DNA from: Prochlorococcus sp. AG-686-J21
GTDB taxonomy: Bacteria > Cyanobacteriota > Cyanobacteriia > PCC-6307 > Cyanobiaceae
Reading direction: 5' to 3'
Length of the DNA stretch: 64,000 nt
NCBI GenBank assembly: GCA_003210285.1
Contig: QCVS01000002.1
Coordinates: 1 to 64,000, forward strand
Part shown: positions 26,654 through 51,340 of the stretch, one piece after another
Layout of the letters: the number at the start of each line of letters is the position of its first letter
Numbering within the stretch: position 1 is the first letter of the stretch
The notes under the pieces: generated by a model
What the model saw: only the letters and a program-made list of their open reading frames with translations
What the model was told of the DNA's origin: nothing
The model's database searches: none
Position numbers and translations under genes: made by a program

Positions 26654-27481
26654 TTAATAAGTAGATGAAGATTCACCCAATTTCTTTGTATTTCTAATTC
26701 TCATCAATTCTTCCAATAGATCTCTTAATCTATGTAATGGCACCATATTAGGCCCATCACTGAGGGCCTTATCAGGATCAGGGTGAACTTCCATAAACAA
26801 ACCGTCAACGCCCACAGCTACTGCTGCTCTTGAGAGAGTAGCAACATGTTCTCTTTGCCCTCCAGAAGATGATCCTTTACCTCCAGGTTGTTGTACAGAA
26901 TGTGTAGCATCAAAAATCACAGGGCATTTTAGTTTTCTTAATTCTGGTAGACTGCGATAATCAACAACAAGAGTATTATATCCAAAGCAAGTTCCCCTCT
27001 CTGTAAGCCATATTCTATTTGAATCACATGTTATGCCTGCTTGATTAATCTTATTTAAAACTTGTTTCATGTCCCATGGAGCTAAAAATTGACCTTTTTT
27101 AATATTTATGGATTTTTGAGTCTCTTCAATAGCTTTAACAGCTGCTAATAATAAATCAGTTTGTCTGCACAAATATGCTGGAATTTGTAAAGTATCAACA
27201 ATATCCGATACCGGTTTAGCTTGCCAAGATTCATGTATATCAGTTAACAACTTTACTCCATATTTTTGTTTTATTTCAGAGAGAACGTCTAAACCTTTAT
27301 CTATTCCAGGACCTCTGAATGAATTTATAGAACTTCTATTAGCCTTATCAAAACTCGCTTTGAATATAAATTTTATTTTCAAATCATCACAGATTTCAGA
27401 TACTTCTTCAGCTATTTCAAATAGAATAGACTTTTCTTCTATTACGCAAGGGCCTGCTATAAGAGTGAAAGGAAAACTCAT
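26654..27481 (-). CDS. kdsA: 3-deoxy-D-manno-octulosonate 8-phosphate synthase
   Basis: Condenses arabinose-5-phosphate and phosphoenolpyruvate into Kdo-8-phosphate. IAGPCVIE is at residues 8-15, where Cys12 is the metal ligand that marks the metal-dependent class (E. coli has Asn). KASFDKANRSS, FRGPG, LLTDIHE, and C-terminal MEVHPDPDKALSDG supply the other metal and substrate residues. 275 aa, full length. Follows kdsC after 53 bases. Confidence 0.95.
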   Translation of the reverse strand: MSFPFTLIAGPCVIEEKSILFEIAEEVSEICDDLKIKFIFKASFDKANRSSINSFRGPGIDKGLDVLSEIKQKYGVKLLTDIHESWQAKPVSDIVDTLQIPAYLCRQTDLLLAAVKAIEETQKSINIKKGQFLAPWDMKQVLNKINQAGITCDSNRIWLTERGTCFGYNTLVVDYRSLPELRKLKCPVIFDATHSVQQPGGKGSSSGGQREHVATLSRAAVAVGVDGLFMEVHPDPDKALSDGPNMVPLHRLRDLLEELMRIRNTKKLGESSSTY

Positions 27482-27534
27482 TTTAATACTTTACATTAAT
27501 AATCCATAAGTTTAATTATTTTTACCTGGAGATA

Positions 27535-28128
27535 TTAATCATTCTTATTAAAGAATCCTTCATGACAATAATTATTCCAAAGTTCTTTTGATTTTAAAAT
27601 TATTTCACTTATTTCCCTAACAGCACCATCCCCTCCTTTGTTTTCTAAAACTAAATCAGATTTTCTTTTTATTTCTTTCGCAGCATCATTTGTACTTACA
27701 AATAGACTTACATGACCTCTAATTGGAAGGTCATTTAAATCATCCCCAACATAAGCAACGTTATTAGAATTAAATTTCAATAATTTCTGAATTTCAAAAA
27801 AACATTTTCTTTTGTCTTTGATGTCAAAATAGCGATATTTTATTCCTAATTGCTCAGCTCTTGAATTAGTAGATAACATGCTACCTCCACTAATTATAAT
27901 AATTTCGATTCCATTTTCTTGAAGCATTTTGATACCTAAACCATCTTTAACAGAGTACTTTTTATGAATTATATTTTCACTATCAATGTATATGCATCCA
28001 TCAGTCAAAACCCCATCGACATCTAAAATTAAGAATTCTATCTTTGCAAATTTTGATTTAAGTAAATGTAACTTTAATTTCTTATTAAATAAAAAATTTT
28101 TTATGATCGAAATTTTTATTTTTCTCAT
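27535..28128 (-). CDS. kdsC: 3-deoxy-D-manno-octulosonate 8-phosphate phosphatase
   Basis: HAD-family phosphatase releasing Kdo from Kdo-8-phosphate. The nucleophile motif is Asp36-x-Asp38 in LDVDGVLTDG. IISGG follows near residue 79 and YVGDDLNDLPI is the third acidic motif. 197 aa, slightly longer at the N-terminus than E. coli KdsC. The start overlaps the kdsD stop by four bases, so the two are coupled. Confidence 0.93.
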   Translation of the reverse strand: MRKIKISIIKNFLFNKKLKLHLLKSKFAKIEFLILDVDGVLTDGCIYIDSENIIHKKYSVKDGLGIKMLQENGIEIIIISGGSMLSTNSRAEQLGIKYRYFDIKDKRKCFFEIQKLLKFNSNNVAYVGDDLNDLPIRGHVSLFVSTNDAAKEIKRKSDLVLENKGGDGAVREISEIILKSKELWNNYCHEGFFNKND

Positions 28129-29111
28129 CCGAATCCTGCCTGAACTAAATCATGTAAACGCAATAAACCACAAATTTTACTTTCATCATTAATTACTGGT
28201 AAAACTGAAATAGGTTTCTTAAAGTTTTTTTCCATTTTTTTTACAGCATTAGCCGCTAATTCTTGTTTATTAATACATATAGGATCTACGGTCATGATAT
28301 CCTTTGCTTTCAAACTAATCCAATCACTTGGATTATTTTTTTCAAGGGCTCTTCTCAAGTCACCATCTGTAATTAAACCTATAATTTTACCTCTTTCATA
28401 TTGATCTTCTATCCATGCACTCCCAATACCATTTTGTGTCATAGAAGTTATTAAATCTACTAATGGATATGAAGGACTTAGTCCTGTAATTTTTTTTATT
28501 GGAATCATAAGATTTTCAACAATAAGTGTTAATTTTTTGCCCAATGATCCTGAAGGATGATTTATAGCAAAGTCTGCTTGAGATATTCCGCATCTTTCCA
28601 TCCAAACAACAGCTAACGCATCTCCAATAGCCATTGCAACCGCAGTGCTCGCAGTGGGTGCTAAATTTAGAGGACAGATTTCTTTATTTACATTACCTTC
28701 TAATACCACTTTACATTTCTGTCCCAGTTCAGATTTGATATTTCCAAGTATACCAATGCAGGATATTTGTCTATTACTTAAATGCGGTAATAAGTTTATT
28801 AATTCTTGTGTATTACCACTATTTGAAATTAGAAGACATATGTCATTCTTAGCAACAATTCCTAAATCCCCATGAAGAGCATCTAGAGGATTTAAGTATA
28901 AAGACATTAAACCTATAGATGAGAATGTGGCGGCAATTTTCCTCGCTACAATACCACTTTTACCTACTCCAGTTATTATTACTTTAGATTTATTTTCGAA
29001 ACATGATACAAGTAAATCTATTGCTTTATCAACTTGAATAATGTCAAGCTTATCCGCTGCCGATTTTATAGCTGAGGATTCTTCAATTAAACATCGAGAT
29101 AAAGCTGACAC
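28125..29111 (-). CDS. kdsD: D-arabinose 5-phosphate isomerase
   Basis: Makes arabinose-5-phosphate from ribulose-5-phosphate for KdsA. An SIS domain (about 40-170) contains ITGVGKSGIVARKIAATFSS and SNSGNTQEL. Two CBS domains follow (about 205-328), with LITDGDLRR and the ending LRLHDLVQAG typical of KdsD/KpsF. 328 aa, full length. Downstream of kdsB by 60 bases. Confidence 0.94.
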   Translation of the reverse strand: MSALSRCLIEESSAIKSAADKLDIIQVDKAIDLLVSCFENKSKVIITGVGKSGIVARKIAATFSSIGLMSLYLNPLDALHGDLGIVAKNDICLLISNSGNTQELINLLPHLSNRQISCIGILGNIKSELGQKCKVVLEGNVNKEICPLNLAPTASTAVAMAIGDALAVVWMERCGISQADFAINHPSGSLGKKLTLIVENLMIPIKKITGLSPSYPLVDLITSMTQNGIGSAWIEDQYERGKIIGLITDGDLRRALEKNNPSDWISLKAKDIMTVDPICINKQELAANAVKKMEKNFKKPISVLPVINDESKICGLLRLHDLVQAGFG

Positions 29112-29171
29112 AATTTTCTAGTAGCCTATATCATTTAAACACTTTTTTTGCATTTTTCTAAATAAATAATG

Positions 29172-30005
29172 TCAGTCCATATTTTTGGCAATCTTTCTCG
29201 CCTCTTCCAGTTGTTCTAATGTATCTATAGAAATAGAGTTACCTTGAATTTTAAAAGTTGAAATTTTATATCCCGCTTCTAATATTTTCAATTGTTCCAG
29301 TTTTTCTGCTTTTTCAAGTTTAGAATCTGGCATATCAAACCACATTCTTAATATTTCAGCCCTAAAACCATAAATACCAACATGTCCCCAAAAAGTTGAA
29401 TGTTCGTGCCAATCACATGCTTCAACTCCTCTAATGTGTGGTAAGGCTGATCTTGAAAAATATATAGCATTTCCTCCAGAAGATAATATGGTTTTTACAA
29501 CAGCTGGATTATGTATATCCTTTCTTCCAAGAGCATATATAGGAGTGATAACATCAAATCTATCTATATCATTAAGTAATTTATTTGACATCAACGTAAG
29601 AACATTGGGGTCTATGAAAGGTTGATCTCCCTGAACATTAACTATCGCAGTTTTAGCAACAAGTTCAGAAATATTTTTTCTTTCTTGAGAATCACAATCT
29701 TGATCCCATGCCTTTGAAACAATTTGATCAACAACTGTTGCAATTCTCTCACTTCCTGATTTACATTCTGAAGATGTCATTATGGTTTGAAAACCCCATT
29801 TTTCAGATAGTTCTTTTAATTTTGAATTATCAGTACATAAAACCAAGCCGTCATAACCTTTTGCTTTAGCACAGTTTTCTAAAACCCTTCTTATCATTGG
29901 TTTTCCACAGATATCTGCCATTATTTTCCCAGGTAATCTCTTTGAATCCAATCTTGCCGGTATAGCTAAAATAGTTTTCTGAACTAAATTACTTTCTAAT
30001 CCCAA
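29172..30005 (-). CDS. kdsB: CMP-Kdo synthetase (3-deoxy-manno-octulosonate cytidylyltransferase)
   Basis: Activates Kdo with CTP to CMP-Kdo. AIPARLDSKRLPGK (about 14-27) is the nucleotide-binding loop; NVQGDQPFIDP and the later HVGIYGFR and LEQLKILEAGY are KdsB signatures. 277 aa, a little longer than the E. coli enzyme because of a short insert near residues 90-115. The start overlaps the downstream end of the glycosyltransferase gene by ten bases. Confidence 0.94.
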   Translation of the reverse strand: MGLESNLVQKTILAIPARLDSKRLPGKIMADICGKPMIRRVLENCAKAKGYDGLVLCTDNSKLKELSEKWGFQTIMTSSECKSGSERIATVVDQIVSKAWDQDCDSQERKNISELVAKTAIVNVQGDQPFIDPNVLTLMSNKLLNDIDRFDVITPIYALGRKDIHNPAVVKTILSSGGNAIYFSRSALPHIRGVEACDWHEHSTFWGHVGIYGFRAEILRMWFDMPDSKLEKAEKLEQLKILEAGYKISTFKIQGNSISIDTLEQLEEARKIAKNMD

Positions 30006-32854: not shown

Positions 32855-33982
32855 TCATTGAAAAAAGTTTTTAATTTTATGGATTATTTCATCTTGATAT
32901 TTTTCTATCCCAAGCCAAATTGGTAATCTTACCAATCTACTAGAAATATCTGTAGATATTTCGCAAGACAAATTAGTTTTTCCAAATTTTGAACCGAAAG
33001 GAGAATCATGAAGAGGAATATAATGAAATAAACATTTTATTCCTTCATTTTTCATATAATTGATAAATTCATCTCTAACTTTAGATGAAGACAAGATTAT
33101 GTAATATAAATGGGCATTATGAATACAATCCTGAGGAATAAATGGTCTATTTATTAATTTAGATTTCTGATAAATCGATAGCTCTTGATGATATTTCTCC
33201 CAAATCTTAATTCTTCTATTAGTTATATATTCAAGAGATTCAAGTTGAGCATAAAGATATGCTGCAACCATATCACCACAAAGGTATGAGGAACCTATAT
33301 CAACCCATGTATACTTATTAATTTCCTCGCGAAAAAACTTTGCTCTATTAGTTCCTTTTTCTCTTATTATTTCTGCTCTTTCAAAGAATTCATTATTATT
33401 AATCAAAAGAGCTCCCCCCTCTCCAGAAGTAATATTTTTAGTTTCATGAAAGCTCAATGTACCAAGGTCGCCAATACTACCAAGACTTTTGCCTTTATAA
33501 GAAGAATTTATCGCTTGGGCAGCATCTTCGACTACGAAGAGTTTGTATTTATTGGCTAAACTAATTATCTCATCCATTTCACATGACACACCTCCATAAT
33601 GAACTGGCACAATTGCTTTAGTATTTTCAGTTATGGCGCTTTCTATTTTTTTTTCATCTATATTTAACGTGTCAGATCTAATATCCACGAAAACAGGAGT
33701 GGCTCCCCTAAGAACGAATGCATTTGCTGTTGAGACGAATGTGTAAGAAGGCATTATAACTTCGTCCCCAGGCTTTATATCTAATAAAATTGCAGCCATT
33801 TCTAAAGCAGCAGTACAAGAATGAGTTAATAAAGTTTTAGAAGTGCCTGTTTTTTGGCAGAGGAAATCTTGGCATTTTCTTGTAAAATCGCCATCACCTG
33901 AAAGTTGGTAATTTGATTGTGCAATGACAATATTTTCAATTTCTTTACCAGTTTGATAAGGTCGATTAAATCCAATATTCAT
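32855..33982 (-). CDS. wecE: dTDP-4-amino-4,6-dideoxygalactose transaminase
   Basis: Transaminates dTDP-4-keto-6-deoxyglucose to dTDP-Fuc4N. Very close to E. coli WecE along its length: GDGDFTRKCQDFL, SCTAALEMAAILLDIKPGDE, MPSYTFVSTANAFVLRGA, VEDAAQ, and PLP lysine Lys182 in LSFHETKNITSGEGGA. 375 aa, full length. Its substrate comes from RfbA/RfbB at 42339-45265. It follows the adenylation gene after 89 bases and converges with the WecF-like gene. Confidence 0.93.
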   Translation of the reverse strand: MNIGFNRPYQTGKEIENIVIAQSNYQLSGDGDFTRKCQDFLCQKTGTSKTLLTHSCTAALEMAAILLDIKPGDEVIMPSYTFVSTANAFVLRGATPVFVDIRSDTLNIDEKKIESAITENTKAIVPVHYGGVSCEMDEIISLANKYKLFVVEDAAQAINSSYKGKSLGSIGDLGTLSFHETKNITSGEGGALLINNNEFFERAEIIREKGTNRAKFFREEINKYTWVDIGSSYLCGDMVAAYLYAQLESLEYITNRRIKIWEKYHQELSIYQKSKLINRPFIPQDCIHNAHLYYIILSSSKVRDEFINYMKNEGIKCLFHYIPLHDSPFGSKFGKTNLSCEISTDISSRLVRLPIWLGIEKYQDEIIHKIKNFFQ

Positions 33983-34071: not shown

Positions 34072-35592
34072 TTAATTTTTCATAGAAAGATAGATATTTT
34101 TACAAGATTTCCTATCTATTTTTCCAGATCTATTTGTAGGTAAAGAACTTGTTAATACAAAATCAGCTGGAACCATAAAATTAGGTAAATTATTTCTTAA
34201 GTATTTTCCTAATGAATCTTCTCTTGATTGAAATGAATTAACAAAATCATTTTCTTCAATTACAGCCGCTAAAAATCTAAATCTATCATCAATAACAAAG
34301 AGACATGACTTAGTTTCTTTTAAAAGAGAATTTATTCTATACTCAACCTCCTCTATTTCTAACCTAATTCCATTAATCTTTATTTGATTATCTTTTCGAC
34401 CATTTATGAAAATTTGACCAGATTTATATTTACAAATATCACCTGTTTTATATTTATCAATACTTTCTTTTATTTCATAAGACAAATCTGGCTTTGTTGT
34501 TGGTTTTATATAACCTCTCATAAGCGCATCCCCAAATATAATTAATTCATCATCAATTATTTCAAAATTAAAATATTTAAAAATTTCTCCCAAGGGTGGA
34601 CATTTTGAATATTGGGAATATAAATCTTTTAATGAAGAAATATCACCTGAATTAAAGGAAAAACAAGAACACATACATGTACCTTCTGTAGGACCATAAT
34701 AATTATGAAATAAAATATTATTCTTTAACTCTTTTGATAAATATTCTAATTCTTCCCAAGAATATCCTTCCCCACCAAAACCAATGAATCTAAGATTTTG
34801 CTTTAAAGAAATCTTTTTAATAAGTCCTGATAATTTAAGTTTTTTTATTAATGATGGAGTTCCATAAATTGAATTAACCATAAGATTATTTTCATATCTT
34901 CCTAATAAATTTTTAAACTCATAAACATCATTAATGGTAATTAGGGAATTCAAACATAAAAACATTGCTAAATCATGAATTGAATTATCAAAATGAATCG
35001 GACTAATAGATAAGTGAAAATGAGGGAGAGGATTATGCATATATTTTGATTGAATCCAATTAATATATAAGGCAAATGATTCTCTTTTAATACAAACGCC
35101 TTTAGGTTCTCCAGTACTTCCAGAAGTAAACATAATATAGGCATCTTGAGTAATATTAGTTTTATTATTTTCATATATAAGAGACCTCAAAAGATCAGTA
35201 ACTTTTAAATTAATTGAATTTATTTCTGAGATCTTTTTGCTATCCATAAAAAAAGTATTTCTTAAATTATTTATAGAATTTTTAAGTCTTAAAGAAGAAT
35301 TTTCATCTTTATCATCTATGGAAACAAAGGGTATCCCTATAATTAAGGAGGATAAAATCAAAGGATAAGTATATTTATTTTTTCTTGAGTCAATTACAAG
35401 TAATTTTGAAGATCCTAAGTTTAATCTTAAAAAATTTACTATTCTAAAAGTATATTCTAAGAATTCGTTATAAGTTAATTCACATTTTAAATTATTTTCT
35501 GAATAAATAATTGATACCTTATCTCTTATCTCCCAAGAGTCCAACAGAAAGTTTTCAATAATCTTTTTTATGCTTAAATTATTCTGACTCAT
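34072..35592 (-). CDS. Free-standing amino acid adenylation enzyme (NRPS A domain-like)
   Basis: A single A domain with no fused carrier. Core motifs: MFTSGSTGEPKG at 154-165, FDNS at 201-204, NYYGPTEGT (about 297-305), YKTGDI, GRKDNQIKINGIRLE and catalytic Lys491 in SGKIDRK. Asp202 in FDNS is the residue that binds the substrate amino group in amino-acid-activating domains and in DltA, suggesting an alpha-amino acid substrate. 506 aa. It overlaps the formyltransferase-like gene by four bases, and a lone carrier protein is three genes upstream. Substrate unknown. Confidence 0.88.
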   Translation of the reverse strand: MSQNNLSIKKIIENFLLDSWEIRDKVSIIYSENNLKCELTYNEFLEYTFRIVNFLRLNLGSSKLLVIDSRKNKYTYPLILSSLIIGIPFVSIDDKDENSSLRLKNSINNLRNTFFMDSKKISEINSINLKVTDLLRSLIYENNKTNITQDAYIMFTSGSTGEPKGVCIKRESFALYINWIQSKYMHNPLPHFHLSISPIHFDNSIHDLAMFLCLNSLITINDVYEFKNLLGRYENNLMVNSIYGTPSLIKKLKLSGLIKKISLKQNLRFIGFGGEGYSWEELEYLSKELKNNILFHNYYGPTEGTCMCSCFSFNSGDISSLKDLYSQYSKCPPLGEIFKYFNFEIIDDELIIFGDALMRGYIKPTTKPDLSYEIKESIDKYKTGDICKYKSGQIFINGRKDNQIKINGIRLEIEEVEYRINSLLKETKSCLFVIDDRFRFLAAVIEENDFVNSFQSREDSLGKYLRNNLPNFMVPADFVLTSSLPTNRSGKIDRKSCKNIYLSMKN

Positions 35593-36533
35593 TTAATAGA
35601 ATATCTTAAATTTTTTGAACCTTGTATTAAATAAAAAGGTAATTTTTCCCTAATATCCAAGATCAATAATTCACTATTCCTTATCCATAATATTCTACGT
35701 TCTATGAAATAAATAATCTGATTACTTTTGTCAAGATTTATATCTTTAAATAAATAACTAAAATTTGAAGCAATGCCTATATTTTTGATATTTTCAATTT
35801 TTATTTCTTTAAAAAAACCTTTATTTATTTCATATAGAGCAGCTTTTAGTCCATAATTATCTAAATTAGATGCTCTAACTGCTTTCTCGAGATAGGAATT
35901 TGAAAATTCAGAATCATATAATCCATAGTTTTCAGATCTTTTAAAATAATCATTTTCTCCATTTTTAACAATTTTTCTTTCTATATTTAATTTTTTGAAA
36001 TTGTATTTTTCTGAATTTATTATATTTTTCTTAACAAACAAACCTGCATAATATTCACCTATTGCAGAAATCGCATAAACATCTTTAATATCTAAAACAT
36101 CCAATAAAGGAAACTTTTCCCATTGCCAAATTAATTCTCCTTCATCGAAATTTTGATTCATTTTATGTATTGATACGTTTAAGGGAATTTTTTTCATTAA
36201 AGCCCCTATTCCTGGATCTTTTCCTTTTAATTGAGGCAAATCAGAGGGATGAATATTTATTAAGAGACTATTTTTATATAAATCAATTTGAATTTTATAT
36301 GGGCATCCACAAGAAATTAAAACATCAAATCTAATTTTATTAAGTTCAAAATGAAGTTCTTTTTTCGATTTAAAAGTAGTTAATAATATTTTGTTTGGAT
36401 TATCTTTAAGTAATTCTCTATGTAAATATGAGTTTTCCAAAGCCAAAATTTGTGTAGGTAATGGACCCTCGGATATTTCTAAAATCCCCTTTAAAGTGGA
36501 TGATCTATTTCCTACGTAAATATATGAGTTCAA
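35589..36533 (-). CDS. Formyltransferase-like protein (Met-tRNA/sugar formyltransferase family)
   Basis: The formyl-THF transferase catalytic core is present: Asn93 and His95 in INIHPSDLPQLKGKDPGIGA and Asp130 in FDEGELI. N-terminal residues 1-75 are a less conserved Rossmann-like part, and the C-terminal region (about 200-314) matches nothing I recognise. Candidates for the acceptor are an aminoacyl group on the adjacent carrier protein, as in the formylating module of linear gramicidin synthetase, or an amino sugar such as dTDP-Fuc4N. Four-base overlaps on both sides. 314 aa. Confidence 0.82.
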   Translation of the reverse strand: MNSYIYVGNRSSTLKGILEISEGPLPTQILALENSYLHRELLKDNPNKILLTTFKSKKELHFELNKIRFDVLISCGCPYKIQIDLYKNSLLINIHPSDLPQLKGKDPGIGALMKKIPLNVSIHKMNQNFDEGELIWQWEKFPLLDVLDIKDVYAISAIGEYYAGLFVKKNIINSEKYNFKKLNIERKIVKNGENDYFKRSENYGLYDSEFSNSYLEKAVRASNLDNYGLKAALYEINKGFFKEIKIENIKNIGIASNFSYLFKDINLDKSNQIIYFIERRILWIRNSELLILDIREKLPFYLIQGSKNLRYSIK

Positions 36534-37252
36534 ATAACTAATCCTCCATCAACGCTATAAATAGAGCCGTTACAGAATTGATTTGAAATTAGAGTTTCAA
36601 TAATATGAGAAACTGATTCTGGTTGACCCAATTTCCCTGTAGGTGTCCTTTCGGAAATTTCTTTTAAGTTGGTGGTAGTCACATTATTTAAAGTTGAATT
36701 TACTTCAATAAAGCCAGGCGAAACACAATTAAATCTTATTCCGGTTTTAGCATATTCTTTACAAAGTGTTTTAGTGGCAGACTCAACTGCAGCTTTTGAA
36801 GCAGCATAATTAATTTGTCCAGGATTACCTTTAGCAACTACTGAGCTGAAATTTATAATTGATCCAGATAACCTTTTTGATAATAATTTATTTGCAAACT
36901 GAATTGACAAAGCAATTGGTAAAGCATAATTTTCTATTAATTGAATTTTTGAGTTTTCAATAAAATCTTGCATATTAGAGTTATCCCATTTTTTTAGACT
37001 TATAACTCTTTCAGAGGTAATTCTTCCTATGGCATTGACTAAATGTACACAAGAGTTTGATTCATTAGGAAATTCTTTTTCAAGTATTTCAAATATGCCC
37101 TCATTAAGATCAATTTTATGAATTTTAGAATTTAAATCTATGTGTTTATCAAAACCTGATATTTGATATTTGTCTTTCTCATTTAAATATTTAAAAAGAT
37201 TACTCCCTAAACTCCCAGATGCTCCTAAGATTATAACCTTGTCTTTATTCAT
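36530..37252 (-). CDS. SDR oxidoreductase (FabG-like)
   Basis: Classical short-chain dehydrogenase: cofactor motif GASGSLGSN at residues 10-18, NAIGR near 93, catalytic Ser-Tyr-Lys in NFSSVVAKGNPGQINYAASK (about 147-166) and SPGFIEV. 240 aa, full length. It sits between the carrier protein gene (1-base gap) and the formyltransferase-like gene (4-base overlap), so it probably reduces a carrier-bound keto group or a sugar intermediate. The FabG-like fold fits either. Confidence 0.87.
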   Translation of the reverse strand: MNKDKVIILGASGSLGSNLFKYLNEKDKYQISGFDKHIDLNSKIHKIDLNEGIFEILEKEFPNESNSCVHLVNAIGRITSERVISLKKWDNSNMQDFIENSKIQLIENYALPIALSIQFANKLLSKRLSGSIINFSSVVAKGNPGQINYAASKAAVESATKTLCKEYAKTGIRFNCVSPGFIEVNSTLNNVTTTNLKEISERTPTGKLGQPESVSHIIETLISNQFCNGSIYSVDGGLVI

Positions 37253-37253
37253 A

Positions 37254-37496
37254 TTAAATACTTTGCAGTTGCAATTTAAGTGCTTGCTCTAAATCATTAA
37301 AACAATTCATATTTTCAATTTGTTCCTTAGTAAATCTTATTTTATATTTATTTTCAACGTATAAAACAAACTGAATGACTGAAAAAGAATCAAAATTTTC
37401 ATGTTCTTCTAATGGCCTATCTTTAAGAATTATTTGATCAATCTTAAACCCTAAAAATTCAGAGGCATCTTCTGTAAGGTTAATCTTCTGACTCAT
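37254..37496 (-). CDS. Acyl/peptidyl carrier protein
   Basis: 80 aa, acidic, four-helix carrier protein pattern. The phosphopantetheine serine is Ser37 in FDSFSVIQF, in place of the usual DSL. Helix III region KEQIENMNCFNDLEQAL follows. It overlaps the acyltransferase gene upstream by four bases and precedes the SDR by one base. Likely loaded by the A domain at 34072-35592 and primed by the phosphopantetheinyl transferase at 46717-47331 (inference). Confidence 0.85.
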   Translation of the reverse strand: MSQKINLTEDASEFLGFKIDQIILKDRPLEEHENFDSFSVIQFVLYVENKYKIRFTKEQIENMNCFNDLEQALKLQLQSI

Positions 37497-38194
37497 AAGA
37501 ATCTAATATAATCTAAAGATTTTATCATCTTATTATCTTTTCCCCCAACAAAACCTCCTGGCATAGTTAATGAATTATTTTGAATAACTTTATTTTTTTT
37601 TACTCTTGTACTGGATATTGCTCCAGAAGTTAAAAGTACGTATTCTTCTAGAATACTTCCTGTAGGCACAATACTAGATATCCCGAAAAAGCAATTTTTA
37701 CCAATCACACAATTCGCACCTATAGTTGTACCTGCTGCAATCCAACAATTACTAAATATCTTTGAATTATGAGCGACATGTGATCTAAACCATAAGACTA
37801 TTCCATTACCTAATTCTACTGATGGTTCGATTATAGCTAATGGTAAGATGATATTCGCATTACCTATTTTTAAATCACTTGATATATAGGCTTTTTTGCT
37901 AATCCAATTAACATTAACTAACTTGGGGTTATTCATAACAAAACTTATAGTTTCCTCTCTATAGTTATTCATATTTGAATATCCAATACAAACCAAAACC
38001 TGTATTAATTCATTACTTTCAATTTCTTCAGGAAGATTTATTTTCTGATTTTTTAAATCAACTTCATGAAGGCCTAGAAAACTTCCAATTGAATGATTTT
38101 CATCTTTAATACTTAATAATGTAGTTTGAGCAAACGATCCCTTTCCTATAATAATCCACGGCTTTTTAAGATCAAGATTAAAATCTCCCATCAT
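37493..38194 (-). CDS. Left-handed beta-helix acyltransferase (PglD/NeuD-like)
   Basis: An N-terminal Rossmann-like part (WIIIGKGSFAQTTLLSI, about 13-29) is followed by hexapeptide repeats from about 120 (IGNANIILPLAIIEPSVELG, then IAAGTTIGANCVIGKNCFFG). A histidine in RSHVAHNSK is the likely base. In PglD/NeuD enzymes this fold moves an acyl group from CoA or ACP to a sugar amine. The adjacent carrier protein makes a carrier-bound donor plausible. 233 aa. Confidence 0.82.
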   Translation of the reverse strand: MMGDFNLDLKKPWIIIGKGSFAQTTLLSIKDENHSIGSFLGLHEVDLKNQKINLPEEIESNELIQVLVCIGYSNMNNYREETISFVMNNPKLVNVNWISKKAYISSDLKIGNANIILPLAIIEPSVELGNGIVLWFRSHVAHNSKIFSNCWIAAGTTIGANCVIGKNCFFGISSIVPTGSILEEYVLLTSGAISSTRVKKNKVIQNNSLTMPGGFVGGKDNKMIKSLDYIRFL

Positions 38195-38196
38195 AA

Positions 38197-39219
38197 CTAT
38201 AACTTACTAACAAAATCTATTATATGATCAAAAGCATCCAATTCAATTGATGTCATCCATATACCAAGTTCTCCATAATTATTACCATTGAATAACAGAT
38301 TAAGTTTTTTTTGATAAATAAATGGAAATGGGTAACAGGCGACCTCAGGATAAAGTGATTCATTTGTAAATATAGGCAGAGTAATATCATCGCATCTTTG
38401 CCAACTTAGATAATCTCGTGAAAAAGCGAATCCTATCTTATAAAAATCGCCTTTTTCATTAGCTCTATAAGAATAAAACATAAAAAATAAATTTCTAATT
38501 TTGATTACTCTAGGAGTACTTATTGCATATTCAATTTTATTTTTAAATTTAATAGTAAAATTTTCGTTTGTATTCCAATTTATACCATCTTTTGAAGAAG
38601 CATACTTAATAGAGTATTTATGTTTTAAAGAATATTTCGAATTTTTATCATTTAACCATTCTTGACAAGATAAGTACCAAGTATGGAAATTGCCATCAAA
38701 AAAACAAACGTCATTAACTGCGACAAAAATGGGGTCAAATTTGTTTCTTTCAAGAATTGGACCTTTATATAGTTTTTTAAAGATTTCATTTTTGAATTGT
38801 CTTTCAGATACACCAATTGCACAAGAAAAAGGGGTTTTCTTACTTAGATTCCAACCACAATAATATAATCTACTTTTATCATTAATTTCGAGAATACAAC
38901 ATGGACAGACTCCATTATCATCAAAGAACCCTAAATCTTGACTATAATCAAGGACCAATTTTAATGACCCATAGTCAACCTCAAAATTATCTATATTAAA
39001 ATCTAATTGATAAATTCTTTCAATTTTATTGATATCTCTACTAGCAAAATATATTTGAGTTTGTTGTTCTTTTGGAAATTTTTTTATAACAGGCAGACGG
39101 GTATGACTAAAAATAGCTGGATGATTTAAACCTGATGGATCAACAACTAATTTTGGATTTTCCCAACTAACATGTTCTTCAATTAATTTATTTAATTCCA
39201 TTAATAGTTTATTGTTCAA
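38197..39219 (-). CDS. Putative five-bladed beta-propeller protein (GH32/43-like)
   Basis: 340 aa without signal peptide. Repeated blade patterns such as FFDGNFHTWYLSCQEW, IKYASSKDGINWN, RNLFFMFYSYRA, IGFAFSRDYLSWQRCDD and KLNLLFNGN resemble glycoside hydrolase families 32/43/62. A catalytic acidic triad cannot be assigned with confidence. A cytoplasmic propeller between a WbqC gene (11-base overlap) and a carrier-protein operon (2-base gap) suggests a transferase or scaffold rather than a secreted hydrolase; that is inference. Confidence 0.65.
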   Translation of the reverse strand: MNNKLLMELNKLIEEHVSWENPKLVVDPSGLNHPAIFSHTRLPVIKKFPKEQQTQIYFASRDINKIERIYQLDFNIDNFEVDYGSLKLVLDYSQDLGFFDDNGVCPCCILEINDKSRLYYCGWNLSKKTPFSCAIGVSERQFKNEIFKKLYKGPILERNKFDPIFVAVNDVCFFDGNFHTWYLSCQEWLNDKNSKYSLKHKYSIKYASSKDGINWNTNENFTIKFKNKIEYAISTPRVIKIRNLFFMFYSYRANEKGDFYKIGFAFSRDYLSWQRCDDITLPIFTNESLYPEVACYPFPFIYQKKLNLLFNGNNYGELGIWMTSIELDAFDHIIDFVSKL

Positions 39220-39913
39220 TAGATTGTTGCATGTAGTTTAAGGACTTTTTCCCGCAATTAAATAATAAGTCAATTATGGAAACTTGATGAATGAAACCAT
39301 CCCATAATTGATCGTAAACCGGATAATTAGAATAATTAAACCATTCAACTTTAATTCCCATTTCATTAAAAATATCTTCATCTAAATAGTTCTTAGCTGA
39401 CATGCCAGAGACATATATTGACCCTCCTATATCAGAAGTGAGATTTGCCAAACGATTAGTTTTCCCATCTTTCAAAAGATAATCTTTAGATAAAGATATT
39501 TTTGTTTTAATACCTAGATAATTACAAATTATTTTAATTAAAGCTAAATTGATACTTGAAAGATGTGAATATTCATTTTGTAAATAAATAGGTCTTAAAA
39601 AAGAAGAAACTTCAGAAAAATAATTTGCTTTTTTATAATTAACTTCTATTGATTTCCAATGTTTCACTTGCCATTCTTTACCATTCACTTCAGTATCAAA
39701 TATTTTTTGGTTATATTTATTTTTAACTTTTACAGGAATTGTAAGCCAAATCAAACCTTGTGGGGTTTTAATTTTATTTCTATTTCGCCAGTCTCTTCTT
39801 GTATATTGCATATCATCAAAAATCACAAATTCGTCAACATTTTTAATAATGTCAAAATAGCCTTTCCATGGAATATAGTTTGATTGTATTATTGCAACTT
39901 TTTTATTATTCAT
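39209..39913 (-). CDS. WbqC family protein
   Basis: 234 aa. The family start KVAIIQSNYIPWKGYFDII, then FDDMQYTRRDWRNRNKIK and SGMSAKNYLDEDIF are all present. WbqC proteins occur in O-antigen and flagellin-glycan loci near aminotransferases and acyl-modifying enzymes; the reaction is not established to my knowledge. First gene of the carrier-protein operon, 53 bases after the flippase gene, overlapping the propeller gene by 11 bases. Confidence 0.85.
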   Translation of the reverse strand: MNNKKVAIIQSNYIPWKGYFDIIKNVDEFVIFDDMQYTRRDWRNRNKIKTPQGLIWLTIPVKVKNKYNQKIFDTEVNGKEWQVKHWKSIEVNYKKANYFSEVSSFLRPIYLQNEYSHLSSINLALIKIICNYLGIKTKISLSKDYLLKDGKTNRLANLTSDIGGSIYVSGMSAKNYLDEDIFNEMGIKVEWFNYSNYPVYDQLWDGFIHQVSIIDLLFNCGKKSLNYMQQSIEQ

Positions 39914-41784: not shown

Positions 41785-42360
41785 CTATTGAGGAAGTTCA
41801 TCTTTTTTCTTATCTTTCAGAAACTTATTATTACTATCTTTTTTAGAAATAGTTATTTCATGATTTAATTCTAAAGGCCAATTAATTCCTAAATCAGGAT
41901 CGTCCCATAAAATACCTTGTTCAGATTTAGGATTATAGTAATCACTTGATTGGTAACATACATCAGCATATTCACTAATTACATAGAAACCATGAGCAAA
42001 TCCAGGTGGGATCCAAATTTGTTCATGAGATACATCATCTAAATATCTATAGAAAGACTTTCCAAAAGTTGGTGAGCTTATTCGAACGTCAACTGCTACA
42101 TCAAAAATCTTTCCATTTGAACATCTAACTAATTTCCCTTGCAGTGGGTTTAATTGATAATGCAATCCTCTTAAAACACCTCTAATACTTCTTGAATGAT
42201 TCTGTTGAATAAGAGGAGGTATTTTATATTCATTAAGATAAGATTCACGACAAGTCTCTACAAAGAATCCTCTTTGATCTTTATAAATAATTGGTTTAAA
42301 AACTATTATACCTAAATCTCTAAATTTTATGAATTCCATTAAATTAAGTCCTCCCACCAT
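41785..42360 (-). CDS. rfbC: dTDP-4-dehydrorhamnose 3,5-epimerase
   Basis: Epimerises dTDP-4-keto-6-deoxyglucose on the way to dTDP-L-rhamnose. RmlC cupin with DQRGFFVETCRES, QNHSRSIRGVLRGLHYQ (catalytic His), GKLVRCSNGKIFDVAVDVR and WIPPGFAHGF. 191 aa. The start overlaps the end of rfbB by 22 bases. Confidence 0.95.
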   Translation of the reverse strand: MVGGLNLMEFIKFRDLGIIVFKPIIYKDQRGFFVETCRESYLNEYKIPPLIQQNHSRSIRGVLRGLHYQLNPLQGKLVRCSNGKIFDVAVDVRISSPTFGKSFYRYLDDVSHEQIWIPPGFAHGFYVISEYADVCYQSSDYYNPKSEQGILWDDPDLGINWPLELNHEITISKKDSNNKFLKDKKKDELPQ

Positions 42361-43373
42361 TCTTTATTACTTAAGAACCATACTATAGTTTTTCTAATTC
42401 CATCTTGAAAATTAACTTTTGGTTCCCATTGTAATTCTCTTTTCAATTTCGACGAATTAATTGCATACCTTTTATCATGTCCAAGTCTATCTTCTACAAA
42501 TTTAATTAATTTTTTACTTGGAATTACAGGCAATTTAACATCATACTTTGGAGCAATTTCGTCTAATAAATCACATATAGTATTCACAATTTCAATATTT
42601 GTAATTTCATTATTACCCCCAATACAGTAGGTTTCGAGTGATTTTCCCTCTAGTAAAATCTTTCCAAGAGCGATGCAGTGATCTTGAACATATAACCAAT
42701 CTCTTATATTCATTCCATTACCGTAAACAGGTATATTTTTGCCAAGAATGATATTTAAAATAGTCAATGGAATTAATTTTTCTGGATAATGGTAAGGACC
42801 ATAATTATTTGAACAATTAGTTATCGTAATAGGCAAATCAAAAGTTTTCCCCCATGCTTTAACTAAATGATCACTCGCAGCTTTACTAGCAGAGTATGGT
42901 GAACTTGGATCATATCTTGTTTCTTCTGAAAATGGGTTTTCTTCTAAATCTAAACTTCCAAAAACCTCATCAGTACTAACATGCAGAAATCTCCAATTAT
43001 TTTTTGATATAGCTTTTCCATAGAGTTCTCTAAAGACTTCAACTAAGTTAAAAGTTCCAATAATATTTGTTTGAATAAATGAATCAGGTCCTCTAATTGA
43101 TCTATCAACGTGACTCTCTGCAGCAAAATGAATAACGTTATTTATTTTATTTTGAACAAACGCATTTAAAACAAGAGATTTGTCAGATACGTCACCTTTT
43201 AGAAAAGATATTTTTTTAGTATTTATTAGTTTTTGTATATTCTTTTTATTTCCTGCATAAGTCAAAGAATCCAATACTATTATTCTATCCATGGGATAAT
43301 TTTGTGCCCAATAATGAACAAAATTACTTCCAATAAATCCTGCTCCTCCAGTAACTAATAGATTTCTATTCAT
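42339..43373 (-). CDS. rfbB: dTDP-glucose 4,6-dehydratase
   Basis: Makes dTDP-4-keto-6-deoxyglucose, which is used for rhamnose and as the substrate of WecE. GGAGFIGSNFVHYW at residues 8-21, HFAAESHVDRSI, STDEVFG (the catalytic Asp-Glu) and YSASKAASDHL. 344 aa. It overlaps rfbC by 22 bases and is separated from rfbD by 23 bases. The gene order when transcribed is A, D, B, C. Confidence 0.96.
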   Translation of the reverse strand: MNRNLLVTGGAGFIGSNFVHYWAQNYPMDRIIVLDSLTYAGNKKNIQKLINTKKISFLKGDVSDKSLVLNAFVQNKINNVIHFAAESHVDRSIRGPDSFIQTNIIGTFNLVEVFRELYGKAISKNNWRFLHVSTDEVFGSLDLEENPFSEETRYDPSSPYSASKAASDHLVKAWGKTFDLPITITNCSNNYGPYHYPEKLIPLTILNIILGKNIPVYGNGMNIRDWLYVQDHCIALGKILLEGKSLETYCIGGNNEITNIEIVNTICDLLDEIAPKYDVKLPVIPSKKLIKFVEDRLGHDKRYAINSSKLKRELQWEPKVNFQDGIRKTIVWFLSNKEWWEDLI

Positions 43374-44353: not shown

Positions 44354-45265
44354 TTAGATCAAATTTAATAAATATTCACCATATCCGCTCTTCATTTGTA
44401 ATTTTGCAACTTTTAATAATTGATCATCATCAATCCAACCATTTCTCCAGGCTATCTCTTCAGGACAAGAAATCTTTACACCCTGCCTTTTTTCTAAAGT
44501 ACGTATAAAATTTCCCGCTTCAATAAGGGAATCAAAAGTACCAGTATCTAGCCACGCAATGCCTCTACCCATCAAGTTTACATATAGTTTTTTATCCTTA
44601 AGATATAAATTATTGATATCTGTTATTTCAAGTTCCCCTCTATGGGAGGGTTTAAGGCTCTTTGCATACCCTATAACATCAGAATCATAAAAATATAATC
44701 CTGTTATAGCGTAATTTGATTTAGGAATCTTTGGTTTTTCATCAATACTTACAACCCTTTTTGTCCCATTTGCATCTTCATGCCAAGTCACTACTCCATA
44801 TCTTTCTGGGTCAGAAACTCTATAAGCAAAAACTATTGCTCCTGATTTATTTTGATCAACCTTTTGTAAAAGAAAGGATAAATCATGTCCATAAAAAAGA
44901 TTATCTCCTAATATGAGCGCAATAGAACTATCACCTATAAACTTTTCACCAAGAATAAAAGCTTGCGCAATTCCCTCGGGTTTGTTTTGTACACAATATT
45001 TTAAAGATATTCCCAAATCAGCCCCATCTCCTAATAATTCTCTGAAAGTTGAAATATCTTCAGGTGTGCAAATTATTAAAATCTCTCTAATTCCTGCGAG
45101 CATAAGTGTAGACAAAGGATAATAAATTAATGGTTTATCATAAACAGGTAAAAGTTGTTTACAAACTGATTTTGTCAATGGATATAAACGAGTTCCAGTC
45201 CCTCCAGATAGTATTATGCCTTTTCTACTAGAATTTAATGAGTTAATTGTTTTAGAATTTTCCAA
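44354..45265 (-). CDS. rfbA: Glucose-1-phosphate thymidylyltransferase
   Basis: Makes dTDP-glucose from glucose-1-phosphate and dTTP. LSGGTGTRLYPLTKSVCKQL (about 19-38), YDKPLIYYPLS, LGDNLFYG, EKPKIPKSNYAITGLYFYD and WLDTGTFDSL are RmlA signatures. 303 aa with a roughly 12-residue N-terminal extension. Follows the sugar C-methyltransferase gene after 28 bases. Confidence 0.96.
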   Translation of the reverse strand: MENSKTINSLNSSRKGIILSGGTGTRLYPLTKSVCKQLLPVYDKPLIYYPLSTLMLAGIREILIICTPEDISTFRELLGDGADLGISLKYCVQNKPEGIAQAFILGEKFIGDSSIALILGDNLFYGHDLSFLLQKVDQNKSGAIVFAYRVSDPERYGVVTWHEDANGTKRVVSIDEKPKIPKSNYAITGLYFYDSDVIGYAKSLKPSHRGELEITDINNLYLKDKKLYVNLMGRGIAWLDTGTFDSLIEAGNFIRTLEKRQGVKISCPEEIAWRNGWIDDDQLLKVAKLQMKSGYGEYLLNLI

Positions 45266-46716: not shown

Positions 46717-47331
46717 TTGAGATTAAAATTAAATTTCCCTGAAGAGACCTATATTTGGCTTTTTTTAAATAGTGTTCCAGTTAAAGAAATTTCTAAAGAA
46801 GAGGAAAGCTGGACTAATAAACTTAGTCCTTCAAATTTCAATCGATATAAACATTCTAGAAGCCTAATTAGAGATGTATTATCTAAAAAATTTAATATTA
46901 AACCTCTTGATATACCATTAAATGCTCCTCCCAATAGAGAACCATTACTAGAAAATGGTTTAGGATACTTAAGTTTAAGTCATTGCAAGACTCATACTAT
47001 TATTGCTTGGGCGCCATCACCAATAGGAATTGATATTGAATGTAAAGAGAGAAATTTCCAAGCATCAAAGTTGTATAAACGTTTTTTTTCTTCAGAAGAA
47101 AAAAGATATTTATCAAATATTGAAACTAAAGATCTCAAAGATGAAGTACTAAAGTATTGGGTAATAAAAGAATCAGCCTTTAAGTGGCAAACAAATAATG
47201 AATCTAATGATTTTATTAATTGGGAATGGAATAGACTAGGAAATTTTGCAATTAATAAAAAAAAGGGATTTAAAGTGAATACTTACATCGAAACTTTAAA
47301 CCTTTTATATATAGGATTAGCATATAATTGA
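46717..47331 (+). CDS. 4'-phosphopantetheinyl transferase (Sfp type)
   Basis: Converts apo carrier proteins to holo form using CoA. LSLSHC (about 85-90), Asp106 and Glu108 in GIDIECKER (magnesium ligands) and YWVIKESAFKW (148-158) are the three Sfp motifs. 204 aa, somewhat short of Sfp. Lone plus-strand gene among two carrier-protein systems. The ORF begins at TTG; an ATG at 46703 is out of frame by one base across a run of eight T's, and one extra T would fuse it as MKYFF followed by this frame. Confidence 0.85.
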   Translation: MRLKLNFPEETYIWLFLNSVPVKEISKEEESWTNKLSPSNFNRYKHSRSLIRDVLSKKFNIKPLDIPLNAPPNREPLLENGLGYLSLSHCKTHTIIAWAPSPIGIDIECKERNFQASKLYKRFFSSEEKRYLSNIETKDLKDEVLKYWVIKESAFKWQTNNESNDFINWEWNRLGNFAINKKKGFKVNTYIETLNLLYIGLAYN

Positions 47332-47409: not shown

Positions 47410-48051
47410 TCAAATAATCTTTGACGGATTGGCATAAGCAGTTTTACCTCTTGGAACAGACTTATAAACAATTGCTCCCAAACCAACTAAAGAATCCTCT
47501 CCTATCTTTACCTTTGGCAAAAATCTTGCACCTGATCCTACCAAAACCCTTTTACCTAAATGTACATTTCCTGTTAAGTCAACAAATGAACTTATAGTAC
47601 AAAAAGATTCAATTAAAACATCATGACCAATTGCAGAGTGCGTATTTACAGTAATAAAATCATTTAATTTTGAATTATTTGAGCATACTGAATAAGGGAA
47701 TATAATGCATCCTTTACCATGTTCTGAAGAAGGTGAAATAATAACTGATGGGTGTATAAAACTTTGAAAATTAGCTTTTCGTTTAATTAATTGATTAACA
47801 ATTTTAAATTTTATTTTAGGATCTGAAATGCCTAAATAAAGCTTATCTTTATTAGTAGGAAAAAATTCAGAAATCTTTCCAAGACAAATAACTTTAATAT
47901 TATTAATACAAAAATTTTTATTTTCTTTATCATCAATAAAAAATAATCTTTCTTCAATTTTATTAAATAATCTTGATTCAATCATCCAACTTATTAATTC
48001 CTTCGCAAGTTCACCAAAACCAACTATTACTATTCTTTCATTATTAATCAT
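47410..48051 (-). CDS. NeuD/PglD-like sugar acyltransferase
   Basis: 213 aa. Rossmann-like N-terminus IVIVGFGELAKELISWM (about 7-23), then a left-handed beta-helix from about 100 with IISPSSEHGKGCIIFPYSVC, and the likely catalytic His in VNTHSAIGHDVLIE. It probably acylates a sugar amine. Being last in the KAS III/ACP/SDR run (35 bases after the SDR), it may use an acyl-ACP made there (inference). Confidence 0.82.
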   Translation of the reverse strand: MINNERIVIVGFGELAKELISWMIESRLFNKIEERLFFIDDKENKNFCINNIKVICLGKISEFFPTNKDKLYLGISDPKIKFKIVNQLIKRKANFQSFIHPSVIISPSSEHGKGCIIFPYSVCSNNSKLNDFITVNTHSAIGHDVLIESFCTISSFVDLTGNVHLGKRVLVGSGARFLPKVKIGEDSLVGLGAIVYKSVPRGKTAYANPSKII

Positions 48052-48085
48052 CTGATTTTGATATCCCTATTTAATCTTTATTATT

Positions 48086-48853: not shown

Positions 48854-48854
48854 C

Positions 48855-49841: not shown

Positions 49842-49858
49842 GATTTAAGAGAGAAAGA

Positions 49859-50095: not shown

Positions 50096-50117
50096 TATTT
50101 ATTAATCAGTAATAGAT

Positions 50118-51285: not shown

Positions 51286-51340
51286 GGTTCTACCATAGGT
51301 TCTACCAAGATGAGCAGGATTATTCAAAGGAATGGTAGAA
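51286..51340. repeat. 12-bp-spaced direct repeats plus inverted copy around the chimera start
   Basis: GGTTCTACCA occurs at 51286-51295 and 51298-51307, exactly 12 bases apart and ending two bases before the ATG at 51310. An inverted copy, TGGTAGAA, is at 51333-51340 inside the ORF, so TTCTACCA and TGGTAGAA could form an 8-bp stem around the start codon. Candidate binding site for the integrase or a repressor. Confidence 0.6.

Follow-up and report, generated by a model that had tools for sequence, protein, structure and literature searches.

Organization of the Operon and Sugar Supply

We identified in Prochlorococcus sp. AG-686-J21 (Cyanobiaceae) an operon which may encode a dissociated NRPS-type initiation unit that has been recruited to glycan synthesis, with formyltransferase (FT), adenylation enzyme (A) and carrier protein (CP) as three proteins, and which may acylate dTDP-4-amino-4,6-dideoxygalactose (dTDP-Fuc4N) or a derivative of it. 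We hold this explanation tentatively, with slightly less than even confidence. The operon is located in the 64,000-nucleotide stretch that was analyzed as a whole (GCA_003210285.1, contig QCVS01000002.1, positions 1-64,000; hereafter the window). Five intact core ORFs, all on the minus strand, overlap or abut in the order acyltransferase (AcT), CP, SDR, FT, and A. The AcT and CP genes, the SDR and FT genes, and the FT and A genes overlap by 4 bases each, the CP and SDR genes are separated by a 1-base gap, and a GH130-like gene precedes the AcT gene after a 2-base gap. An earlier sequence-only reading had described these five tightly packed genes and named Ser37 of the carrier, Asn93, His95, and Asp130 of FT, and Asp202 of A; the positions, the integrity of the ORFs and, by alignment, the residues were all confirmed. 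The operon extends past the five genes, with a WbqC family protein and the GH130-like protein encoded upstream and a WecE-type aminotransferase downstream. WbqC was missing from that reading, as was a second acyl-carrier cassette of the window, a KAS III/carrier cassette with a second beta-helix protein. The window also encodes a TonB receptor, a binding protein and a FecCD-type transporter.

The WecE-type aminotransferase (32855..33982, minus strand), which makes dTDP-Fuc4N according to family models, scored 589.6 bits against NF008687 (cut-off 375) and 575 bits against TIGR02379 (cut-off 434.85). RmlB (dTDP-glucose 4,6-dehydratase; 42339..43373, minus strand) is 51% identical to rfbB of the plasmid locus L090, and RmlA (glucose-1-phosphate thymidylyltransferase; 44354..45265, minus strand) is 48% identical to rfbA of the plasmid locus L088. 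By family assignment, RmlA, RmlB, and WecE together constitute a dTDP-Fuc4N supply.

Adenylation Enzyme and Carrier Protein

The free-standing adenylation enzyme (506 aa; 34072..35592, minus strand) matches the AMP-binding family above the Pfam gathering score (PF00501, 73.2 bits). Its nearest solved chains are LgrA, which is the best match, a DltA-type ligase and ApnA A1. In NCBIfam the DltA models rank first, with scores far below the curated cut-offs (TIGR01734, 162.6 vs. 559.85 bits; NF003417, 169.4 vs. 476 bits), and the AA-adenyl-dom models are also below cut-off. Asp202 and an A10-type Lys491 are kept in all six free-standing adenylation enzymes aligned, and A would charge the carrier with an alpha-amino acid. 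Read by eye from alignments at what we take to be the pocket positions, the code is D-N-H-S-G-G-Y-C-M-K in the window and D-N-F-S-G-G-F-C-M-K in two related genomes, Prochlorococcus sp. AG-418-G18 (G100) and a member of another genus of the family (G812). To our knowledge this code fits no specificity code and therefore no amino acid is claimed for A; the specificity prediction that had been proposed from the sequence thus yielded no assignment. No relatives of the A domain were found in a scan of viral contigs.

The carrier protein (80 aa; 37254..37496, minus strand) has Ser37 as its putative phosphopantetheine site and resembles acyl carrier protein models weakly. The gathering score of PF00550 (20.8) was missed by the carriers of G100 (20.3) and G812 (20.0), and the window protein gave no match. 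The attachment motif DS(L/F) is present in all seven carriers aligned, which are about 80 aa long and resemble ACPs more than PCPs. A second, accessory phosphopantetheinyl transferase (PF01648; 46717..47331, plus strand), encoded in addition to the core-type gene, is a candidate activator of the carriers of the locus.

Formyltransferase, SDR, and Acyltransferase

The formyltransferase-like protein (314 aa; 35589..36533, minus strand) consists of an N-terminal formyltransferase core and a C-terminal part of uncertain kind, and Asn93, His95, and Asp130 are invariant in the three members. The window protein scored just under the gathering score of Formyl_trans_N (24.2 vs. 26.1) and its two orthologs above it (35.6 and 29.5), and the FT profile matched 25 relatives of Fmt-like length across 280 columns. 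In the core region, to which these comparisons apply, the best solved relatives of the three-member profile are a dTDP-4-amino-4,6-dideoxyglucose formyltransferase (42.0 bits) and VioF (41.4 bits), compared to 34.4 bits for the gramicidin synthetase LgrA; the VioF-type equivalog NF005755 was missed (29.1 bits, cut-off 238). Full-length FT homologs occur in two of 266 genomes of the genus, both within the module. Scans of viral contigs, plasmids and phages with single sequences and with the alignment found no FT relatives, and in scans of genome contigs one query sequence brought up none and two brought up Prochlorococcus sp. AG-418-G18 alone. Elsewhere, the FT matches are for the most part short, and the proteins examined resemble PurN, PurU, Fmt, or sugar formyltransferases by eye; these were not counted. 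An AlphaFold model of FT made with two sequences was discarded (pLDDT 35.6).

The SDR (240 aa; 36530..37252, minus strand) is FabG-like and has kept the Asn-Ser-Tyr-Lys residues: Asn108, Ser136-Ser137, Tyr149, and Lys153, which we take to be catalytic, are present in all three members.

AcT (233 aa; 37493..38194, minus strand) is a left-handed beta-helix N-acyltransferase of the NeuD/PglD type, which matches the hexapeptide family above the Pfam gathering score and has PglD as its best solved match. TIGR03570, the NeuD/PglD/VioB subfamily model and the best among the models listed, was matched below its cut-off (83.7 vs. 160.8 bits). The catalytic-type His142, at the position of PglD His125, lies in a motif that aligns with that of PglD and is present in 3/3 module members and 15/15 relatives; two cyanobacterial entries with wrong ORFs are excluded from these counts. 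At V156 and G160, AcT differs from residues that are invariant in the 15 relatives. These changes could fit an altered donor, an argument that is weak because one of the 15, the other beta-helix protein encoded in the window as part of the KAS III/carrier cassette, keeps both residues. AcT relatives occur in glycan loci that lack homologs of the carrier and the adenylation enzyme; a scan of viral contigs gave no AcT match.

WbqC Is Predicted to Share the Fold of BshC

The WbqC protein (39209..39913, minus strand) scored 267.4 bits against PF08889 (gathering score 21.3), and that of G812 scored 248.5 bits. The adjoining GH130-like protein (38197..39219, minus strand; PF04041, 28.5 vs. 26) is a frequent neighbor of WbqC. 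BshC is the bacillithiol enzyme which joins an amino acid to an amino sugar. The predicted model of WbqC (pLDDT 93.1) aligned to BshC (PDB 4wbd) over 222 of 234 residues with a VIA-align Z of 14.2 and an rmsd of 3.3, the next match having a Z of 8.3. A Foldseek ranking of the model gave no match at E ≤ 0.001 (best E 0.02), and BshC was absent among the 50 matches listed. At sequence level no similarity between WbqC and BshC was found by PDB sequence search, and Pfam assigns the protein to WbqC only. PF10079 (BshC) had no match in the genome of the window nor in 244 genomes of the phylum. Of 49 viral loci with WbqC, 30 were used for the WbqC set, together with the window and L033; BshC was absent from the NCBIfam matches of 32 WbqC proteins. 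Q10, P15, G18, Y19, D33, and N44-N46 do not vary among 32 WbqC sequences. BshC, with 540 residues, differs from WbqC in length, WbqC being less than half as long. From the model we predict, newly here, that WbqC shares the core (HUP) fold of BshC and may be a second amide-forming enzyme which joins an amino acid to an amino sugar; the operon may therefore hold two amide-forming systems. Among the WbqC papers listed, none had a title on the function of the protein.

Recurrence of the Module in Other Genomes

Co-occurrence of the families, which the sequence-only reading had set as a test, was found: the set recurs in three genomes of two genera. These three modules are all that were found, and their catalytic-type residues are intact. 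The five core proteins are 31-41% identical in G100 and G812, and this conservation in two other genomes speaks against a chance neighborhood. The order GH130-AcT-CP-SDR-FT-A is common to the window and G812, whereas in G100 the FT gene is at a different place inside the block. WecE-type genes are present in all three module genomes, the relatives in the other two being 47 and 54% identical (G100, NF008687, 481.4 bits). Among the six loci examined for free-standing A, a carrier is encoded in the same gene block in six, an acyltransferase in six (three beta-helix, three AAC(3)-like) and a formyltransferase in four. A fourth A/CP locus, G027, has an FT of another subfamily next to the acyltransferase.

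Related plasmid and viral-contig loci have WbqC, many of them with AcT-type and GH130-like genes, and AcT and WbqC relatives are mostly found in loci with glycan genes. In Rhizobiaceae and Azospirillum plasmids, L090 resembles the operon in having RmlA, RmlB, WecE, WbqC, a beta-helix AcT and a GH130-like gene, L092 and L093 in having WecE, WbqC, AcT and GH130-like genes, and L089 in having WbqC, AcT and GH130-like genes. Unlike the operon, the plasmid loci L088-L093 lack, at E 1e-4, any homolog of A, carrier, SDR, or FT, with methyltransferases annotated instead. The viral-contig loci likewise have no A or CP homolog at E 1e-4, and the quartet therefore looks like an added unit. In the viral-contig locus L110 a formyltransferase-like gene directly adjoins a WecE-like aminotransferase gene.

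Proposed Pathway and Alternative Explanations

In the pathway that we favor, RmlA, RmlB, and WecE supply dTDP-Fuc4N, as their families show, and A would activate an alpha-amino acid and load it on the phosphopantetheinylated carrier. Using 10-formyl-tetrahydrofolate as donor, FT would formylate the amino group, either while it is carrier-bound or once it has been transferred, which is the least certain step, and SDR might reduce a precursor, carrier-bound or free. AcT would take the acyl group off the carrier and pass it to the 4-amine of dTDP-Fuc4N or, alternatively, to the amine of an amino acid joined to the sugar beforehand by WbqC as a predicted BshC-like ligase, and the decorated sugar would enter a surface polysaccharide. 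This pathway is supported by the tight operon, the conserved set, the full-length FT homologs within the module, the carrier and acyltransferase accompanying each free-standing A examined, the WecE-type genes, the added-unit look of the quartet, the accessory phosphopantetheinyl transferase, the BshC-like model of WbqC, and the known N-acylated aminoacyl groups on 4-amino-4,6-dideoxyglucose. Counting against it are the FT scores, the ACP-like carriers under the Pfam gathering score, an SDR without a clear task, the recurrence in three modules only, the ambiguity of V156 and G160 of AcT as signs of a carrier donor, the unmatched code of A, and the displaced FT gene in G100; FT and AcT could, moreover, compete for the single amine of Fuc4N. 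A formyl-capped, peptide-like group, in which WbqC joins an amino acid to dTDP-Fuc4N and AcT adds a carrier-made N-formyl-aminoacyl group, is rather unlikely. The sequence-only reading had proposed that an aminoacyl or N-formyl-aminoacyl group is delivered to an amino sugar by the beta-helix acyltransferase. The parts, the catalytic-type residues, the polysaccharide setting with RmlA/RmlB/WecE and the co-occurrence favor that proposal; as to its formyl part, the sequence of FT is a little closer to those of sugar formyltransferases (41-42 bits) than to that of the gramicidin F domain (33-34 bits). As a whole, that interpretation is partly supported.

The same scores are in line with FT being a sugar N-formyltransferase on dTDP-Fuc4N, analogous to VioF with dTDP-Qui4N; a separate acyl decoration would then be made by A, carrier, SDR, and AcT. 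A formyl group occurs on 4-amino-4,6-dideoxyglucose in O-antigens (PMC3210612), and the gene pair in L110 also fits. We regard this alternative as doubtful but serious: all three modules have FT within the A/CP/SDR/AcT block and not next to WecE, the A/CP locus G027 has its other-subfamily FT next to the acyltransferase, and formylation of the sole amine would block AcT. An improbable alternative is that the acyl group is non-amino or O-linked, or that the unit D-alanylates the polymer in the manner of Dlt, with no formyl-aminoacyl product. DltA models do top the NCBIfam matches of A (169.4 and 162.6 bits), but their cut-offs (476 and 559.85) are far from reached; an SDR with a carrier is also reminiscent of how the viosamine island makes its 3-hydroxyacyl group (PMC3927599). 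Asp202 is kept in 6/6 A enzymes, and no ketosynthase, MBOAT, or DltD family was present among the operon proteins scanned. Very improbable, finally, is that the product of the operon is a small peptide-like molecule for secretion, such as a chelator, and the polysaccharide setting incidental. The TonB receptor, binding protein and FecCD-type transporter would suit it; however, no condensation or thioesterase domain was found among the operon proteins scanned, the module accompanies WbqC and WecE in three genomes, and AcT and WbqC relatives are mostly in glycan-gene loci.

Comparison With Known Systems

The favored initiation unit resembles the F-A-PCP initiation module of the linear gramicidin synthetase LgrA, in which formyltransferase, adenylation and carrier functions act together and with which FT shares the catalytic core. 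In LgrA, however, a single polypeptide carries all three, with a condensation domain after them, whereas here they are separate ORFs, no condensation family was detected among the operon proteins scanned, and the glycan neighborhood includes a beta-helix acyltransferase as the putative off-loading enzyme. The Dlt system (DltA/DltC) is a free-standing A and a small carrier acting on a surface polymer; the operon has this pair of parts in common with it and differs in that its scan gave no MBOAT or DltD.

The lincosamide synthetase (LmbC and LmbN-CP) likewise uses a free-standing A and a carrier to link an amino acid to an amino sugar by an amide, but its product is a soluble antibiotic, the amide is proposed to be formed via LmbD, E, F, and V, and no formyltransferase is named there (PMC4351081). 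The viosamine island of Pseudomonas syringae (vioA, vioB, vioS, vioR, acp), as outlined in its report, relies on a VioB-type transferase and an SDR-containing acyl-carrier pathway to acylate a dTDP-4-amino-4,6-dideoxy sugar; it has a ketosynthase and a 3-hydroxybutyryl-type group where the operon has A and a formyltransferase, and it fits the second cassette of the window better than the operon (PMC3927599). Known structures include 4-amino-4,6-dideoxyglucose bearing N-acetylglycyl, N-acetyl-alanyl, or N-(3-hydroxybutyryl)-alanyl groups, and N-acylated aminoacyl groups on 4-amino-4,6-dideoxy sugars occur in marine and other bacteria (PMC3210612). The sole gene found to be named for amino acid addition to such glycans is alt of Acinetobacter baumannii K loci, predicted to add alanine to a capsule sugar; unlike the operon it is named as a single transferase gene, and the passages on it mention no carrier, A, or formyltransferase (PMC9676051). 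No gene set like that of the operon was found in the titles and abstract openings of the papers listed.

These loci offer two testable candidate routes, one carrier-based with A, carrier, and acyltransferase, and one via WbqC with its BshC-like fold. If two amide systems are indeed present, WbqC proteins at large would ligate amino acids to amino sugars in glycan synthesis, and the WbqC Pfam family, whose function is absent from the literature titles found, would gain a mechanism to test. Enzymes of the A/carrier/formyltransferase kind are usually known from peptide antibiotics, the E. coli O121/Shigella dysenteriae 7 locus is associated with an N-acetylglycyl sugar, Prochlorococcus is a highly abundant marine phototroph, and the surface layer is what phages recognize. 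If the favored explanation is true, peptide-synthetase logic would serve this phototroph in varying its cell surface.

Organization of the gene run and its polysaccharide setting

Five abutting or overlapping genes had been proposed in the sequence-only reading, encoding an acyltransferase (AcT), a carrier protein (CP), an SDR, a formyltransferase (FT) and a free-standing adenylation enzyme (A). All five open reading frames are indeed intact and run in the same direction between positions 34072 and 38194, with 4-base overlaps and one 1-base gap. The minus-strand run exceeds these five genes: it starts with WbqC (39209-39913) and a GH130-like gene (38197-39219, overlapping WbqC by 11 bases), continues through AcT, CP, SDR, FT and A, and is followed 89 bases after A by a WecE-type aminotransferase (32855-33982, minus strand; score 589.6, curated cut-off 375). 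Because the WecE score far exceeds its cut-off and RmlA and RmlB genes are located upstream of the run, the sugar served by the locus is likely dTDP-4-amino-4,6-dideoxygalactose (dTDP-Fuc4N). The module is embedded in a surface-polysaccharide locus in which Wzz, polysaccharide export and Bac_transf families were found. The genome (1.58 Mb, 99% complete) shares its genus with Prochlorococcus sp. AG-418-G18.

Positions 26654-30005 hold a DAHP_synth_1-family gene within a run of genes whose translations, judged by eye, are KdsC-, KdsD- and KdsB-like; a genome of Prochlorococcus type would thus presumably contain a Kdo set. A Rieske/ring-hydroxylating oxygenase gene (51310-52635) lies between a second acyl cassette and a Wzz-like gene. 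Adjoining the polysaccharide locus, ExbB, TonB, periplasmic binding protein, TonB-dependent receptor, ABC ATPase and FecCD permease families (57392-63810) represent an iron-complex or cobalamin uptake set.

Conservation of the module

The supposed co-occurrence of the five families was borne out: the complete set recurs in Prochlorococcus sp. AG-418-G18 and in G812, a genome of another genus of the same family. In AG-418-G18, A, SDR, CP, FT, AcT and WbqC are packed into about 5.5 kb, with WecE, RmlB and RmlA nearby and FT at a different place inside the gene block than in the window; the five core proteins are 31-36% identical to those of the window, and WbqC is 53% identical. G812, found by an A-enzyme search over 300 genomes of the family, has the gene order GH130-AcT-CP-SDR-FT-A on its contig, as in the window, with WbqC about 4 kb off and identities of 33% (AcT), 41% (CP), 36% (SDR), 36% (FT) and 33% (A); a WecE-type gene (54%) lies elsewhere in the genome. 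Full-length FT homologues are present in 2 of 266 genus genomes, namely the window's own and AG-418-G18. No FT member besides the window's was found in 386 phylum genomes (no other match >47 bits) or, at E 1e-15, in 281 class genomes, two samples that overlap each other. From these identities and counts, the module is therefore conserved, diverged to about 35% identity, and rare.

Six loci with a free-standing A enzyme were opened (the window, AG-418-G18, G812 and the further genomes G027, G244 and G562); three other matches of the A search, whose open frames are 1520-2247 codons long, are outside this count. A carrier and an acyltransferase share the gene block with A in all six, the acyltransferase being a beta-helix AcT in three and AAC(3)-like (PF02522) in three, and FT is present in four. 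The FT of G027 is of another subfamily, matching 25 relatives of Fmt-like length and the module FT over only 51 columns. No FT was found among the ORFs of the 14-kb contig of G244, where the window FT query had no match, or in G562 by BLAST with three FTs as queries. Since all six loci hold the other three components and four hold FT, the A enzyme, carrier and acyltransferase are a recurring unit with FT as a frequent, inconstant addition in this small set (n = 6).

AAC(3)-like proteins (aminoglycoside acetyltransferase family) adjoin free-standing A/carrier pairs in three genomes (loci L068, L069 and L154), and one more is encoded at 20336-21322, inside the window's polysaccharide locus. They are possibly another route from carrier to amino sugar.

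Predicted formyl and acyl transfer

Asn93, His95 and Asp130 of FT, residues already singled out in the sequence-only reading, are invariant in the three module members. In our main reading, A would load an amino acid on CP and AcT would transfer the acyl group to an amino sugar; that FT formylates the aminoacyl group, on the carrier or after its transfer, is tentatively proposed. Alternatively, FT may act on the sugar amine, a reading that we keep as somewhat less likely. Among solved proteins, sugar formyltransferases come nearest to FT (42.0 and 41.4 bits), and because these outscore the gramicidin F domain (34.4 bits), in each case over the catalytic core only, similarity leans slightly toward a sugar substrate; two points lean to the aminoacyl group, the location of the FT gene within the A/CP block and the presence of just one amine on Fuc4N.

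AcT (ACYLTRANSFERASE) is a beta-helix protein of NeuD/PglD type. Its relatives co-occur with WbqC and GH130-like genes in 4 of 6 Rhizobiaceae/Azospirillum plasmid loci, and also on viral contigs; on the plasmids no homologue of the window's A, CP, SDR or FT was detected at E 1e-4. The 49 viral WbqC loci contain GH130-like genes (30), AcT-like genes (11), SDR matches (3) and FT-like matches (3; L106, L110 and L111), and none contains an A or CP homologue. Five columns are invariant in 15 AcT relatives; the module members (n = 3) retain G17, H142 and G171, and have V156 replaced by T, T and S and G160 by A in all three. These changes may hint, weakly, at a carrier-bound donor; the hint is weak because the window's second beta-helix protein (47410-48051), itself one of the 15 relatives and part of a KAS III/carrier cassette, retains both residues.

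A predicted BshC-like fold for WbqC

An AlphaFold model of WbqC built from 32 sequences was confident (pLDDT 93.1, pTM 0.90). With this model, plain Foldseek found nothing in the PDB at E 0.001 or better (best 0.02), and the 50 matches it listed did not include BshC. VIA-align, run on Foldseek's top 1000 chains, ranked Bacillus subtilis BshC first (Z 14.2, rmsd 3.3, 222/234 residues); after it, from Z 8.3 downward, come mostly nucleotidyl and adenylyl transferases of HUP type, among them aminoacyl-tRNA synthetases and pantoate-beta-alanine ligase. Sequence searches gave no sign of a relation between WbqC and BshC. BshC couples cysteine to an amino sugar and has the deacetylase BshB as its counterpart in the bacillithiol system; likewise, a PIG-L deacetylase adjoins WbqC in Mycobacterium branderi. 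A DegT/WecE-type aminotransferase is present in 10 of 11 opened plasmid WbqC loci (none is annotated in L089), and acetyltransferases in several. By analogy, these neighbours fit a BshC-like role. Fold and context lead us to hypothesize that WbqC is an amino acid:amino sugar joining enzyme, which would activate the amino acid and link it to the sugar amine. WbqC is not specific to the module: of 121 genus genomes four carry it, and just two of these have the module. At the WbqC loci of the remaining pair (L084-L086), none of the window's A, CP, SDR and FT proteins has a homologue.

In 24 of 25 viral-contig loci (L118-L142) a GH130-like gene follows WbqC, overlapping it in 22 and lying about 0.5 kb away in the other 2. 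Some of these contigs are >100 kb, and aminotransferase-, epimerase- and GNAT-like genes were recognized by eye in L119. A conserved gene set for amino-sugar decoration thus seems to be present on the viral contigs.

Candidate carrier activation and related acyl-carrier routes

The window contains an extra phosphopantetheinyl transferase gene (46717-47331), in addition to a core-type copy that the genome has at another site. The core copy is split over two reading frames in the assembly (contig 1, about 133,400-134,000; L083), which may be either a sequencing or assembly error or a sign that the core gene has been replaced. In G027, too, a phosphopantetheinyl transferase gene lies next to the A/CP locus, and the rest of the genome shows just a short match with a stop; one copy was found in each of AG-418-G18, G812 and G562, and none in the incomplete genome G244. 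The presence of these genes supports use of the carriers, short of proving it.

The second acyl-carrier cassette (47410-51077) resembles the Pseudomonas viosamine island. It comprises the beta-helix acyltransferase, an SDR (48086-48853), a KAS III (48855-49841), a small carrier in a gap (49859-50095, minus strand; DSL motif; PF00550 21.2, gathering score 20.8) and a second KAS III (50118-51077).

Published work describes a free-standing A enzyme and carrier by which an amino sugar can be provided with an amino acid in lincosamide synthetase (PMC4351081), an acyl-carrier route to N-acyl-4-amino sugars in the viosamine island (PMC3927599), 4-amino-4,6-dideoxyglucose with N-acetylglycyl, N-acetyl-D-alanyl and N-(3-hydroxybutyryl)-L-alanyl groups (PMC3210612), and an alanine transferase gene named alt in Acinetobacter K loci (PMC9676051). 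No glycan pathway with the present gene set was found in open-access literature listings. A conserved, dissociated peptide-synthetase-type unit sits within a Fuc4N glycan locus, for which a formyl-aminoacyl step and a WbqC step are predicted.
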